This document shows, piece by piece, positions 3,505-43,014 of a DNA stretch of 43,014 nt; the stretch's first letter is position 1; the number at the start of each line of letters is the position of its first letter. Under the pieces are notes generated by a model. That model was not told where the DNA came from and ran no database searches. It saw only the letters and a list, made by a program, of their open reading frames with translations. The stretch comes from a virus: IMG/VR virus record IMGVR_UViG_3300017772_000022, positions 1-43,014 of that record. One strand, written 5' to 3'. A program made the translations under genes and the position numbers.

Positions 3505-5412
3505 ATGAACAACTATTTACCAACTGACTACCAATCGTTCATCCACAAATCTCGCTATGCTAGATGGATGCAAGGCGTAGGAAGGCGTGAGACATGGGAT
3601 GAGACTGTGGGAAGATACATCGACAACGTAGTGAAGCGGGTACTGCCCGACAGATTACATTACCTTGCATTGGAGTGTGAGCAAGCTATCTTAGGCTTAG
3701 AGGTTGCACCTTCCATGCGAGCTATGATGACTGCAGGCCCAGCCCTCGACAGAGATAACACCGCTGGGTATAACTGTAGCTACCTACCCGTAGATGACCC
3801 TAAGTCCTTCGATGAGGCTATGTATATCTTGCTCTGTGGTACTGGTGTTGGGTTCAGTGTCGAGCGTCAATATGTTACTAAACTCCCTGAGATCCCTGAG
3901 TTGTTCTACAGTGATACAACTGTCGTTGTCAAAGACAGTAAGGAAGGTTGGGCTAAAGCGTTCCGTCAAGTTCTTGCTCTCCTCTGGGCTGGTGAGATCC
4001 CTAAGTGGGATGTCTCTCGTGTTCGTCCTGCAGGTGCTAGACTAAAGGTGTTTGGCGGTAGGGCTAGTGGCCCAGCACCCTTGATTGATCTGTTTAACTT
4101 CGCTATCACAACATTTAAGAATGCACAAGGACGTAAGCTTACAAGTATCGAGTGCCATGATCTTATGTGTTTCATTGGTCAGATCGTTGTTGTTGGTGGT
4201 GTGCGTAGGTCAGCTATGATTAGTTTGTCTAACTTGTCTGATGATCGTATGCGTCATGCTAAGTCAGGACAGTGGTGGGAGACTGCAGCTTGGAGAGCGT
4301 TGGCTAATAACTCAGTTAGTTATACAGAGAAGCCTGACATGGAAACGTTTATGCGTGAGTGGACAGCACTGGTAGAAAGTAAATCAGGAGAGCGTGGTGT
4401 ATTTAACAGACAAGCTAGTAAGGATCAAGCGAAGAAGTATGGCAGACGTAACCCTGACTACGAGTTTGGAACTAATCCCTGTTCAGAAATCATACTACGT
4501 CCGTATCAGTTTTGCAACCTTACTGAAGTTGTTATCAGGGCAACAGATACAATGGCAGACTTGGAACGAAAGGTAAGGATCGCAACTGCATTAGGTACAA
4601 TACAATCTTCTTTAACTAACTTCCCTTATCTACGTAAGGTCTGGAAGAACAACACAGAGGAAGAGCGTTTGCTTGGAGTATCCTTGACAGGTATCATGGA
4701 TAACCCTCTTACTACATCAGAAAACCAAGGATTGGAGAAGACCCTTGCACATCTTCGTGGAGTTGCTGTCAATACTAACGCTGAACTTGCTGACACTCTT
4801 GATATACCTCATAGCACTGCAATCACGTGCGTTAAACCATCAGGAACAGTATCGCAACTGGTGGATTCAGCCTCTGGGATTCATGCTCGCCATAGTGCCT
4901 ATTATATCCGTACTGTTCGTGGTGATAACAAAGATCCATTGACACAGTTTATGAAAGATCAAGGCATCCCTAATGAGCCATGCGTTATGAAGGGAGACAC
5001 GACTACTGTGTTTAGTTTCCCTGTCAAGTCACCTAGCAAGTCAATCACTCGTAACGATATGACAGCTATTGAGCAGTTACAAACTTGGCTGTTGTACCAA
5101 CGACATTGGTGCGAACATAAGCCAAGTGTGACGATCTCAGTTCGTGACGATGAATGGATGGAAGTGGGTGCGTTTGTATATAAACACTTTGACGAAATGT
5201 CAGGTGTGTCTTTCTTGCCACACTCAGATCACACATATCAACAGGCACCCTATCAAGACGTAGACAAGGACACATATAATGTGCTACTAAAGTCTATGCC
5301 TAAGAAGATTGATTGGGCTGGGCTGTCTGAGTACGAGAAAGACGATAACACCGCTGCAATGCAAACTATGGCTTGTACTGGTGATGCATGTGAAATAGTA
5401 GACATAACATAA
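3505..5412 (+). CDS. nrdJ: Class II (B12-dependent) ribonucleotide reductase
   Basis: This 635-residue enzyme reduces ribonucleotides to deoxyribonucleotides using adenosylcobalamin to make the thiyl radical, so it works with or without oxygen and needs no small subunit. Visible active-site residues are Cys326 (radical) and Glu328 in NPCSEI, Asn324, and the redox pair Cys91 (YNCSYL) and Cys337 (FCNLTEV). The phosphate-binding turn PSGTVSQLVDSASG is intact. The C-terminal Cys624-x4-Cys629 is the swinging pair that re-reduces the active site, with the same spacing as in the Lactobacillus enzyme. It is monomeric-type but about 100 residues shorter than that enzyme. A glutaredoxin lies two genes downstream. 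It supplies dNTPs from host RNA pools during phage DNA synthesis. Confidence 0.95.
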   Translation: MNNYLPTDYQSFIHKSRYARWMQGVGRRETWDETVGRYIDNVVKRVLPDRLHYLALECEQAILGLEVAPSMRAMMTAGPALDRDNTAGYNCSYLPVDDPKSFDEAMYILLCGTGVGFSVERQYVTKLPEIPELFYSDTTVVVKDSKEGWAKAFRQVLALLWAGEIPKWDVSRVRPAGARLKVFGGRASGPAPLIDLFNFAITTFKNAQGRKLTSIECHDLMCFIGQIVVVGGVRRSAMISLSNLSDDRMRHAKSGQWWETAAWRALANNSVSYTEKPDMETFMREWTALVESKSGERGVFNRQASKDQAKKYGRRNPDYEFGTNPCSEIILRPYQFCNLTEVVIRATDTMADLERKVRIATALGTIQSSLTNFPYLRKVWKNNTEEERLLGVSLTGIMDNPLTTSENQGLEKTLAHLRGVAVNTNAELADTLDIPHSTAITCVKPSGTVSQLVDSASGIHARHSAYYIRTVRGDNKDPLTQFMKDQGIPNEPCVMKGDTTTVFSFPVKSPSKSITRNDMTAIEQLQTWLLYQRHWCEHKPSVTISVRDDEWMEVGAFVYKHFDEMSGVSFLPHSDHTYQQAPYQDVDKDTYNVLLKSMPKKIDWAGLSEYEKDDNTAAMQTMACTGDACEIVDIT

Positions 5413-40916: not shown

Positions 40917-41353
40917 TAACCCGCTGTCCACTTCTGTGTGCCACCTACAGATGCACCTGCATTCGCCATGCCACCTTTGCTGTACATGTTTTTCTTTTTA
41001 GCGTAGCCACCCTTATTCATATCTGCGAAGGGATTAGGTAGAGGTTTAACTTTCTTGTTGCCAGCTTTTGTATTAGCACCTTTAGTAGAAGACTTTTGTG
41101 CTTGAGCAGCATCTGCAGCATCAATCTTCCTTTCGATAGCATCAAATTCTTTTTGTGTAATATTACCTGCACGTAAATCTTTACCTGCCTGTATCATAGC
41201 ATCTGCACGTTGCTTATCTGTAAATGAACGGTACGCAGCCATTGATAGTGGCTTGTCACCAGCTTTAGTTGTGATAGCTGAGATACGTCCTGATGCAGCA
41301 CGTCCACGTTCTGTTCCTGTCTGCTTCTGTTTAAACTTAGGTAGTTTTGCCAT
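40916..41353 (-). CDS. Basic low-complexity protein with KGGM motif (145 residues)
   Basis: The protein is Lys/Ala/Gly/Gln-rich. The N-terminus reads KLPKFKQKQTGTERGRAASG, a helix follows (QRADAMIQAGKDLRAGNITQ and FDAIERKIDAADAAQ), and the end is MNKGGYAKKKNMYSKGGMAN. The K-G-G-[YM]-x-K-K element recurs in two large virion proteins in this window. A virion or assembly role is therefore possible. It has a weak ggaac site and overlaps the next gene. No family is recognised. Confidence 0.6.
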   Translation of the reverse strand: MAKLPKFKQKQTGTERGRAASGRISAITTKAGDKPLSMAAYRSFTDKQRADAMIQAGKDLRAGNITQKEFDAIERKIDAADAAQAQKSSTKGANTKAGNKKVKPLPNPFADMNKGGYAKKKNMYSKGGMANAGASVGGTQKWTAG

Positions 41354-41371
41354 TGGTATAGTTCCTTCTAT

Positions 41372-41656
41372 TTACCATTTAACTTTATCAGCCCAGTAAG
41401 CTGCACTCAACTTACCACGCTTTATGTTCTTTGCATGACGTGCTTTAAAGCTTGCACGTTTCTTTTTCATTTTATCTGATTCACCTGACTTAGGCTTACC
41501 TGCAGTCTTAGCGCCTTGCTCACCAAAGCGAATAGTCTTAACTGTATCACCCTCTTTAGCTACAACTACGTGCGACTTCTTAGGGTGGTTAGGTGTACGC
41601 TTAGGTTTGTTAAAGCCAGATACACCTGCACGTTCTAATCTAGGGTCTTTAGGCAT
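41372..41656 (-). CDS. DUF6321-like small basic protein
   Basis: This product reads MPKDPRLERAGVSGFNKPKR, then TPNHPKKSHVVVAKEGDTVK, FGEQGAKTAGKPKSGESDKM and FKARHAKNIKRGKLSAAYW. The S-F-K-A-R-H-x-K-N-I-x-x-G-K-x-S-A-A-Y-W end is a strongly conserved phage signature, which I know as DUF6321, with unknown function. It is basic and soluble. I start at the ATG at 41656 because it follows gaagga and gives the family-typical MPKDPR start; a GTG 18 bases upstream is less likely. It overlaps the 68-residue gene. Confidence 0.8.
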   Translation of the reverse strand: MPKDPRLERAGVSGFNKPKRTPNHPKKSHVVVAKEGDTVKTIRFGEQGAKTAGKPKSGESDKMKKKRASFKARHAKNIKRGKLSAAYWADKVKW

Positions 41657-41855
41657 CTGTCCATCCTTCTTCACGCATAGCCCACTCTACATGTTCTAAA
41701 GTAAAAGGTCTACCGTAGTGAGCCTGTACAGCCTCTCTTACGTAGAATACATCACTGTGGGGGATATGTAAGTTCTCAAGGTTACCGTCTAATACGTGTT
41801 TATAAAACTCTTCAAGAACATTGTCTGTGTATAGTTTTACGGATTTCTTTGCCAT
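41649..41855 (-). CDS. First late-region gene, hypothetical (68 residues)
   Basis: This product reads MAKKSVKLYTDNVLEEFYKH, then VLDGNLENLHIPHSDVFYVR, HYGRPFTLEHVEWAMREEGW. It is a soluble, helical protein with a compact composition. The start is the ATG at 41855; a TTG six bases upstream is in frame but unlikely. The ribosome site is weak (taggt). A promoter-like element (41831-41861) overlaps its start, so some transcripts may begin inside the gene. The function is unknown. Confidence 0.6.
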   Translation of the reverse strand: MAKKSVKLYTDNVLEEFYKHVLDGNLENLHIPHSDVFYVREAVQAHYGRPFTLEHVEWAMREEGWTDA

Positions 41856-41861
41856 TGTCAA
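41831..41861 (-). promoter_or_regulatory. Promoter-like element overlapping the first late gene
   Basis: On the minus strand TTGACA (41856-41861) is followed after exactly 16 bases by TAAAAC (41834-41839) and TAT. It is the same layout as the capsid promoter. It overlaps the start codon of the 68-residue gene, so it would transcribe from within that gene. It may be a second late promoter or chance. Confidence 0.5.
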
Positions 41862-41889
41862 TACCTAAGTTAAGATAATATACAAACGC

Positions 41890-41906
41890 CTCCGCATAAA
41901 GCGGAG
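41890..41906 (-). other. Leader stem-loop of the late transcript
   Basis: CTCCGC (41890-41895) pairs perfectly with GCGGAG (41901-41906) around ATAAA. It lies 35 bases upstream of the first late gene start and downstream of the 42038 promoter. It could act as a leader hairpin, or as a weak attenuator since TTTGTATATT follows on the minus strand. Confidence 0.5.
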
Positions 41907-41917
41907 TACATTTAAGT

Positions 41918-42157
41918 GTTACACTGTACATGTTTATGTTATGTGTAATTTATTAAGAGATTATTTTTAAGAGTAACATTGTAAGGACATTCTAAATGAT
42001 ACATTGTACATGTATACACCTTAACTATTACTATTACATAGTTTTACACATATAATATGGTATGTCAAGTGTTAATATTGTCACTGTAACATTAAGTGAT
42101 ACACTGAAACATTACGTTATCTGTGTATGTCATCACGAATTGTTACAACAATGTAAC
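41918..42157. repeat. Cluster of TACA/TGTA half-sites
   Basis: Related words recur: GTTACACTGTACATGT (41918), GTAACATTGTAAGG (41973), GATACATTGTACATGTA (41998), GTCACTGTAACATT (42080), GATACACTGAAACATT (42098) and the perfect inverted repeat GTTACAACAATGTAAC (42142-42157). The surrounding 41862-42240 has no convincing gene. Such iterated dyad half-sites suggest binding of a phage regulator or an origin protein, but this is inference. Confidence 0.5.
42038..42068 (-). promoter_or_regulatory. Late promoter at the head of the minus-strand region
   Basis: On the minus strand TTGACA (42063-42068) is followed after exactly 16 bases by TAAAAC (42041-42046) and TAT. The expected start near 42031 is about 175 bases before the first late gene. 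The layout equals the capsid promoter. It lies within the half-site cluster, where a regulator could control it. Confidence 0.65.
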
Positions 42158-42170
42158 CATTGTATATGTA

Positions 42171-42194
42171 AACCACCTTATGTGTATAGTGGTT
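42171..42194. other. Inverted repeat AACCAC / GTGGTT
   Basis: AACCAC (42171-42176) and GTGGTT (42189-42194) form a six-base dyad around 12 bases. It lies just beyond the TACA/TGTA cluster and may be an operator or cruciform. There is no T-run on either strand. Confidence 0.4.
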
Positions 42195-42240
42195 AACAGT
42201 GTATTTTACTGATCTGTGTGTATATTCATGCATACTATCT

Positions 42241-42308
42241 ACGCCACCCCCACTGGCCCCTGCGGCCCTTCGCTCTTCACCGCGCAATTGCGCCTATAAT
42301 GCAAGGTC
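42241..42308 (+). promoter_or_regulatory. GC-rich patch ending in a perfect TATAAT
   Basis: Bases 42241-42294 are far richer in GC than the AT-rich sequence on the left and include the perfect palindrome GCGCAATTGCGC (42282-42293). TATAAT (42295-42300) follows. No good -35 is present 16-18 bases upstream, so it would need an activator. It may be the plus-strand early promoter, with transcription starting near 42307. Confidence 0.4.
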
Positions 42309-42620
42309 ATGGCGCGTGGTGAGAGCAAACAGCATGTCACATTCCACCATCACATCGTAGATGTGTTTAAAAACAACCACTTACTTGTCTACGACAACTG
42401 TTATGGAATCAGTTGCCTGTCTTTAGACAGAATGGATAGGGGGATTTGCCACACTCTTAGTGTGTTGACAAGACGATGCTTATATTTCTACCCCATCCCC
42501 TCTGGGGCAATGCACATGATCCTACAAGCCACGTGCTGCTCTGCCAATGGTTCAAGTCAAGTCCGACGTTGGACCTATAACATCTTTGATGTTGCTAAAA
42601 TGTCACAGCTAAGGTGGTGA
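42309..42620 (+). CDS. Doubtful ORF (103 residues) over a hairpin-rich segment
   Basis: An open frame starts with ATG eight bases after TATAAT, with no ribosome site, so it would be leaderless. The product (starting MARGESKQHVTFHHH) is His/Cys-rich with no domain or helix pattern I recognise. The same bases hold many short perfect stems, which fits an RNA better than a protein. I list it as possible but think it probably not coding. Confidence 0.2.
   Translation: MARGESKQHVTFHHHIVDVFKNNHLLVYDNCYGISCLSLDRMDRGICHTLSVLTRRCLYFYPIPSGAMHMILQATCCSANGSSQVRRWTYNIFDVAKMSQLRW
42385..42593 (+). ncRNA. Candidate structured RNA or origin stem-loops
   Basis: Short perfect stems follow each other closely: TTGTC-TAC-GACAA (42385-42397), CAACTG-N9-CAGTTG (42395-42415), CTGTC-TTTA-GACAG (42417-42430), CACACT-CTT-AGTGTG (42450-42464), CCCC-TCT-GGGG (42497-42507), GTCC-N6-GGAC (42561-42574) and AACATC-TTT-GATGTT (42579-42593). 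The first two share bases and exclude each other. The density and the tiny loops suggest a folded RNA, or single-strand structure at an origin. The strand is assumed from the TATAAT upstream. No known RNA family is recognised. Confidence 0.35.
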
Positions 42621-42858
42621 AGCTGCGAGTTGAGGTCGCAAGTTTAGCGCATGAGTTTCAGAAAAATATTATCGAAGAGAATATTATTTCTTGCAACAGC
42701 GTGTAAAACGGCGGGCGCAGAGGATCACGAGGCAACTTTCCAACCTCCAAAACTTATACTATCTTCTTACATTTTTAATGATAGAACTATATCTCACTTC
42801 TTGTGAGAGATATAGATTCTCTCATATAAAAATAGAAGATAGATAAAGGAAGCTCAAA
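42621..42858 (+). promoter_or_regulatory. Leader region before the right-edge gene
   Basis: This 238-base stretch has no gene that I can support. It holds TGCGA-N7-TCGCA near 42625, a direct repeat AATATTAT (42665 and 42680), AT-rich sequence with TTATACTAT near 42762 as a possible -10, the stem-loops at 42787-42824, and the aagga ribosome site at 42846-42850. It is probably the 5' leader of the early operon. Confidence 0.45.
42787..42824 (+). promoter_or_regulatory. Two mutually exclusive leader hairpins
   Basis: CTATATCTCAC (42787-42797) pairs with GTGAGA and TATAG (42803-42808, 42811-42815) across a two-base bulge. Alternatively TGAGAG (42804-42809) pairs with CTCTCA (42819-42824). Both cannot form together. 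They lie 35 bases before the ATG of the right-edge gene, so they could switch its expression. Confidence 0.5.
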
Positions 42859-43014
42859 ATGGCAAATCTCGAAATTCAAAACATCTCAACCCTCGAAGAT
42901 CAAGGCAAGGTTCTTTCAGAACAGTGGGCTAAAATCGAAGCTGCTGACAAGAAAAGATTCAAACTTTCAACCAAAGCTGAAGGCTTTGATACACAGCTTG
43001 GAAAGCTGATGGTC
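42859..43014 (+). CDS. Early gene cut by the right edge
   Basis: This ATG follows aagga at a good distance and the frame stays open for the 52 codons to the window end. The visible start is MANLEIQNISTLEDQGKVL, then KKRFKLSTKAEGFDTQLG. It is soluble and Lys/Glu-rich, and its full length and function cannot be seen. It is likely the first gene of the plus-strand early region; the polymerase at the left edge would be further along that same region if the source molecule is circular. Confidence 0.7.
   Translation, partial: MANLEIQNISTLEDQGKVLSEQWAKIEAADKKRFKLSTKAEGFDTQLGKLMV

Follow-up and report, generated by a model that had tools for sequence, protein, structure and literature searches.

A conserved non-coding control element with covarying hairpins and an operator-like palindrome precedes the rightward early genes of HMO-2011-type marine phages

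Results

The window, a 43,014-nucleotide stretch of viral DNA (IMG/VR record IMGVR_UViG_3300017772_000022), is a fragment of an HMO-2011-type phage, and its control region matches those of CRP-1, CRP-345 and HMO-2011. The control region is situated between leftward genes, the last of which begins at 41861, and a rightward gene (Table 1). An earlier note, made from the letters of the window, had flagged positions 42385-42593 as a possible new structured RNA or origin. Covarying hairpins in and beside this stretch and a non-coding reading frame support an unannotated structured element, but the true element is larger; the flagged stretch forms only the middle part of a non-coding region of ~500-600 bases (~42170-42858).

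When the neighbouring protein and two DNA patterns were used as queries, 104 distinct homologous control regions were recovered from HMO-2011-type marine phages, among them the isolates HMO-2011, CRP-1 and CRP-345. The aligned relatives share one order of parts. In 104/104 homologues, 202-208 nt separate the conserved GTGGTTAACA block from the core hairpin P1, in spite of a poorly conserved sequence in between. Nine cellular contigs, all from Clostridia or Lachnospiraceae, also carry the core pattern. These were read as chance matches, and the model of the 3' domain described below fails on the fetched loci. An Rfam 15 cmscan of 41300-43014 with E values up to 5 returned seven matches, all far below the gathering scores and none overlapping 42385-42726. 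No tRNA or tmRNA gene was detected in the window by ARAGORN.

Table 1. Positions of the features in and around the control region, numbered along the window
Feature	Position	Strand	Remarks
Leftward promoter-like site, TTGACA - 16 nt - TAAAAC	42041..42068	-	read from sequence; conserved
Highly conserved DNA block	42169..42223	.	dyad TAAACCAC-N12-GTGGTTAA (42169-42176 / 42189-42196), then ACAnTnnATTTTMCTGATCTGTGT
Candidate -10 box CATACT	42231..42236	+	TATACT, CATATA or TACAAT in relatives; predicted from alignment
C/G-run-rich patch	42245..42275	+	position-conserved in alignment
Hairpin P0, TTGTC-TAC-GACAA	42385..42397	+	alternative to P1
Core hairpin P1, CAACTG-TTATGGAAT-CAGTTG	42395..42415	+	sequence nearly invariant
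Hairpin P2, CTGTC-TTTA-GACAG	42417..42430	+	significant covariation
Hairpin P3, CACACT-CTT-AGTGTG	42450..42464	+	covaries in a subset; other sequence in many relatives
Stem CCCC-ATCCCCTCT-GGGG	42491..42507	+	within length-variable part
Operator-like palindrome GTCCGACGTTGGAC	42561..42574	.	one of 3-9 genome-matched copies, the rest in the downstream early region
Hairpin AACATC-TTT-GATGTT	42579..42593	+	covaries below significance
3' domain	42642..42709	+	invariant closing helix GTTT (42642-42645)/AAAC (42706-42709), conserved internal loops, P4
P4 helix	42655-42664 with 42687-42697	+	strong covariation
Conserved 3' tail of the 3' domain, GRCNNGCGCAGAGGATC	42710..42726	+	
Long A+T-rich 5' UTR hairpin immediately preceding the first early gene	42762..42839	+	covariation-supported
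First rightward early gene	ATG 42859..43014	+	truncated at the contig end; the product of the near-identical relative L002 has 196 aa

Upstream of the element, ATAGTTTTACACA...TGTCAA is among the best-kept stretches in 78 relatives. A terminator-like hairpin on the minus strand (41887-41906), which separates the leftward promoter-like site from the first leftward gene, is a possible leader terminator. The A+T-rich part of the divergent region contains imperfect repeats (e.g. TAAGTGTTACACTGTACATG) at 41913-42120, which align poorly in the relatives, and the most hairpin-dense windows of the contig start at 41951 and 42001.

Both the GC-rich patch and the TATAAT reported in the earlier note are present (~42245-42275 and 42295-42300, respectively), but the TATAAT is not conserved among relatives and was rejected as a promoter. 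Instead, a conserved promoter-like block is located farther upstream, spanning 42169-42240. The left arm of its dyad is missing in a few outliers, while the right arm and the sequence onward are retained. Within the conserved block no consensus sigma-70 promoter for the rightward unit was found. The part at 42169-42223 is probably the promoter or regulator site of the rightward early unit, with a predicted transcription start near 42243. The C-run at 42245-42262, close to this predicted start, is swapped for a G-run in several relatives (e.g. L121, L063 and L102).

Open frames exist in the region. However, the 103-residue frame overlapping the flagged stretch is open in 1/78 aligned non-redundant relatives, namely in the window itself, and in relatives that share 95-97% identity with the window it contains a 1-base deletion and a 2-base insertion. 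Hence, this frame is ruled out as a gene, in line with the weak coding that had been suspected. A 51-residue frame starting at 42651 was rejected as well, because the length of P4 changes by non-multiples of three. We regard it as extremely improbable that the region codes for protein in either of these frames.

With a criterion of at least 5 bp and a loop of 3-9, six perfect stems are found in 42385-42593 (P0 to P3, the CCCC/GGGG stem and the hairpin at 42579). Dinucleotide shuffles give 1.27 +/- 1.11 such stems (P about 0.001), and as many perfect stems occur in 0.9% of the contig windows of 209 bases. The earlier note had counted seven; the additional one, at 42561-42574, is a 4-bp GTCC/GGAC palindrome belonging to the operator-like DNA sites discussed below. 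Three stems, rather than the four stated there, have three-base loops. P0 and P1 do exclude each other, as had been observed, but P0 is complete in only 25/61 relatives and a conserved two-state switch between them was rejected.

The minimum free energy, by contrast, is unexceptional on the plus strand (z -0.73; 45/200 shuffles as good) and only moderately low on the minus strand (z -2.20) in the comparison with shuffled sequence suggested in the earlier note. The mean z is likewise modest in the 78 relatives (-0.6 to -1.2). Minimum free energy is too weak a proof of structure here. The element is identifiable by comparative evidence, and energy alone would have missed it.

Covariation was assessed in 78 aligned relatives with an R-scape-like test (G-test with average-product correction, no named structure used). 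For the null distribution, Fitch-reconstructed substitutions were redistributed on the tree in 20 null alignments. This phylogeny-aware test gave 11 column pairs at E<0.05, all of them Watson-Crick and confined to three helices. Three pairs belong to P2 (42419-42421 with 42426-42428), the only helix inside the flagged stretch that passes. Further pairs fall in P4 (42655-42661 with 42690-42697), just 3' of the stretch, and four in the 5' UTR hairpin (42763-42766 with 42835-42838; 42787 with 42815). Thus compensatory changes, for which the earlier note had proposed to look, do exist, and hairpins within and beside the stretch covary strongly.

The counts of cells changed on both sides of a stem point the same way, with 108 in P1-P3 against 38.6 in shuffled data and 175 in P4 against 60.5 (0/500 shuffles in both cases), although the stem columns were picked by eye from the alignment and the counts therefore lean towards the named structure. 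Shifting the partner by 1-3 columns abolished the signal. P4 is formed by 17 distinct complementary stem sequences in 77/78 relatives and P2 by nine in 67/78. P1 is paired in 98.9% of cells with almost no variation; because it is nearly invariant, covariation is uninformative for or against its pairing. P3 has its complete 6 bp in 21/61 relatives, and its covariation is below significance in the phylogeny-aware test. The hairpin at 42579-42593 covaries among relatives with a best pair at E about 0.6. RNAalifold adds the invariant GTTT/AAAC helix that encloses P4.

A covariance model of the 3' domain (R1) matches CRP-345 at E 1.1e-26 and CRP-1 at E 2.1e-23, both of which were left out of the model; HMO-2011, also matched, was used in building it. 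Altogether 15 of the 18 tested genome records are matched, the exceptions being CRP-9, CRP-207 and CRP-603.

Neither G-U nor A-C pairs occur in P4 or in complete P2 stems (0 of each), so that wobble counts in these stems do not point to one strand as the RNA. Complete P3 stems contain five G-U and no A-C pairs. The 5' UTR hairpin likewise has no G-U bias.

The palindrome GTCCGACGTTGGAC recurs downstream of the element as part of a dispersed palindromic family. Over all loci, the first 6 kb downstream, amounting to 295 kb, contain 298 operator-like sites, whereas 556 kb of upstream sequence contain 14, the latter number being close to chance (about 17 expected for two 4-base half-sites and their complements). 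In 68/75 genomes (permutation mean 47, maximum 59) the control-region site belongs to the majority class of the downstream sites; this figure is inflated by closely related genomes. Two genomes have changed to CCCCAACGTTGGGG or CCCCGATGTCGGGG, both at the control-region site and in the downstream copies. Since the flanks (AACC..ACTT / AAGT..GGTT) and the centres (ACAT/ATGT) are found in both orientations, the palindrome is read as a double-stranded DNA site. The supposed stem at 42561-42574 belongs instead to this operator-like DNA family.

Besides this site, L002 carries copies at 5253, 5994, 6233, 6587 and 7832, and some operator-like copies fall within reading frames. Each of the 15 large genome records in which the 3' domain occurs contains 4-7 exact sites on the plus pattern, compared with 0-1 for a reversed-pattern control; the three HMO-type genomes lacking the domain have 0-1 exact sites. 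A GTCCAAGGTTGGAC copy is located inside the integrase gene at W01:7079-7092, W02:6868-6881, G005:13747-13760 and G006:53918-53931.

Adjoining the last operator copy, the early region encodes a 112-aa winged-helix protein (L002:7965-8300, plus strand). It matches HTH_24 at E 0.0026, which is below Pfam's cut-off, and a PHROG HTH family at E 3.4e-4; homologues are present in 59 loci, about 2-3.6 kb downstream. A comparison of operator class with the recognition-helix residues of this protein revealed no clean correspondence, and for this reason the protein stays a candidate regulator. A tyrosine integrase is encoded in 15/15 genome records with the 3' domain, and CRP-3 of the HMO-2011-type group was shown to integrate (PMC9038755). 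Consequently, a lysogeny-type regulator is plausible. The neighbouring L002:8350-8763 (plus strand) encodes an early protein related to mycobacteriophage L5 gp82 (Pfam PF25735, E 3e-33).

Discussion

The flagged stretch is part of a conserved non-coding, hairpin-containing control element that is absent from Rfam and larger than first supposed. Probably it represents an undescribed regulatory leader. On balance, we lean towards the view that in HMO-2011-type phages the region forms the structured untranslated leader of the rightward early operon, with an embedded operator. Transcription would begin in or just downstream of the block at 42169-42240, and the transcript would pass P1, P2, P3, the 42579 hairpin, the P4 domain and the long 5' UTR hairpin before reaching the gene at 42859. 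The position between a promoter-like block and the first early gene suggests that the element acts as RNA. The covarying hairpins would then function in cis, in all likelihood through modification or protection of the early RNA or its polymerase, and the long terminal hairpin at 42762-42839 may serve as a processing or stability element. The palindrome and its genome-matched copies would be bound by a dimeric regulator, encoded by the phage, through which rightward early transcription is blocked or timed; the conserved winged-helix protein beside the last copy is a candidate for it.

A more far-reaching version, in which a large (~500 nt) new leader-RNA family controls the early operon, co-evolving palindromic operators provide phage-specific early-gene specificity and whole stems are replaced without wobble intermediates, is put forward more tentatively and falls somewhat short of an even chance.

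The nearest working analogy is a cis-acting early leader such as HK022 putRNA. This structured element follows the promoter closely in the leader of a lambdoid phage early operon and has a proposed cis action on early transcription (PMC9378689). The leader position fits our element, albeit with a predicted promoter, whereas the present region is several times larger and comprises several hairpins in a row together with an embedded operator and a long UTR hairpin, and it has no Rfam match. There is also no sign of a terminator excess to overcome: on the plus strand of the early region intrinsic terminators are not in surplus, which speaks against an antitermination role like that of put; judged by terminator count, antitermination receives no support.

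For the operator set, a comparison with the stoperators of cluster A mycobacteriophages (L5, Bxb1) suggests itself, where a short motif resembling the repressor site is repeated through early genes and intergenic gaps in genome-specific variants (PMC6550527). The site described here likewise recurs across the early region, each genome having its own consensus. It differs in being palindromic with flanks in both orientations, while L5-type sites are asymmetric, and in its copy number, with 3-9 copies, most of them within 6 kb downstream and some in reading frames, compared with up to about 30 per genome for the L5 type. By analogy, the operators may work like stoperators, with a candidate binding protein.

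The early-mRNA processing hairpins of T7-like phages are RNase III sites. The hairpin at 42762-42839 appears to resemble these, as a long hairpin in the predicted early mRNA just before a gene, although the upstream string of hairpins is outside that class.

The earlier note had left the choice between a new structured RNA and an origin. A structured element is supported by covariation, and action as RNA is proposed here from its position. Single-strand initiation hairpins are known from G4-type complementary-strand origins, and the short, perfectly paired, small-loop hairpins clustered in our non-coding region are similar to them, but here they are placed as the leader of an early gene. An origin or single-strand initiation site acting at the DNA level, where cruciforms or single-strand hairpins start or prime replication, would agree with the perfect Watson-Crick stems free of wobble on either strand, with the location in the divergent region at the minimum of the window's cumulative GC skew, with the adjoining A+T-rich repeats and conserved dyad, and with the rigid spacing between dyad block and core hairpin. 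However, the GC skew is confounded by the direction of genes and transcription, and neither a DnaA-box array nor another known origin feature could be demonstrated. Nor can the missing wobble pairs be used as evidence for DNA, because the covarying 5' UTR hairpin, which is expected in the early mRNA, shows no G-U bias either. We consider an origin unlikely. A trans-acting small RNA, cut from the early leader (e.g. at the long UTR hairpin) and acting on host or phage targets, appears slightly less probable still. Conserved unpaired stretches such as TTATGNAAT and GCGCAGAGGATC would suit such a molecule and the separate terminal hairpin offers a possible cleavage site; against this, the plus-strand 3' end has no independent terminator, the element is always collinear with gene 1 and no target was identified.

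The discrete stem sequences without intermediates and the zero wobble pairs might also be explained as a mutational by-product, with the real function residing solely in protein-binding DNA sites. Perfect stems are known to arise and persist through template switching (PMC8794818), a process that could be the source of those found here. Yet the stem and loop positions, together with invariant single-stranded surroundings, are retained down to roughly 45% identity, and a mutational process alone would not hold the same hairpins in place. As a full explanation of the hairpins we judge it very improbable.

The main text of a paper on HMO-2011-type diversity contains none of the words promoter, repressor, palindrome, intergenic or non-coding (PMC9038755); hence, going by this paper, early regulation in these phages looks largely unstudied. 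As a group they count among the dominant viruses of the sea, and the element offers a testable early control region together with candidate operators and a candidate regulator, available in three cultured phages (HMO-2011, CRP-1 and CRP-345). Its wobble-free and strongly covarying stems are, in addition, a useful natural case for selection versus template switching as the keeper of perfect stems.
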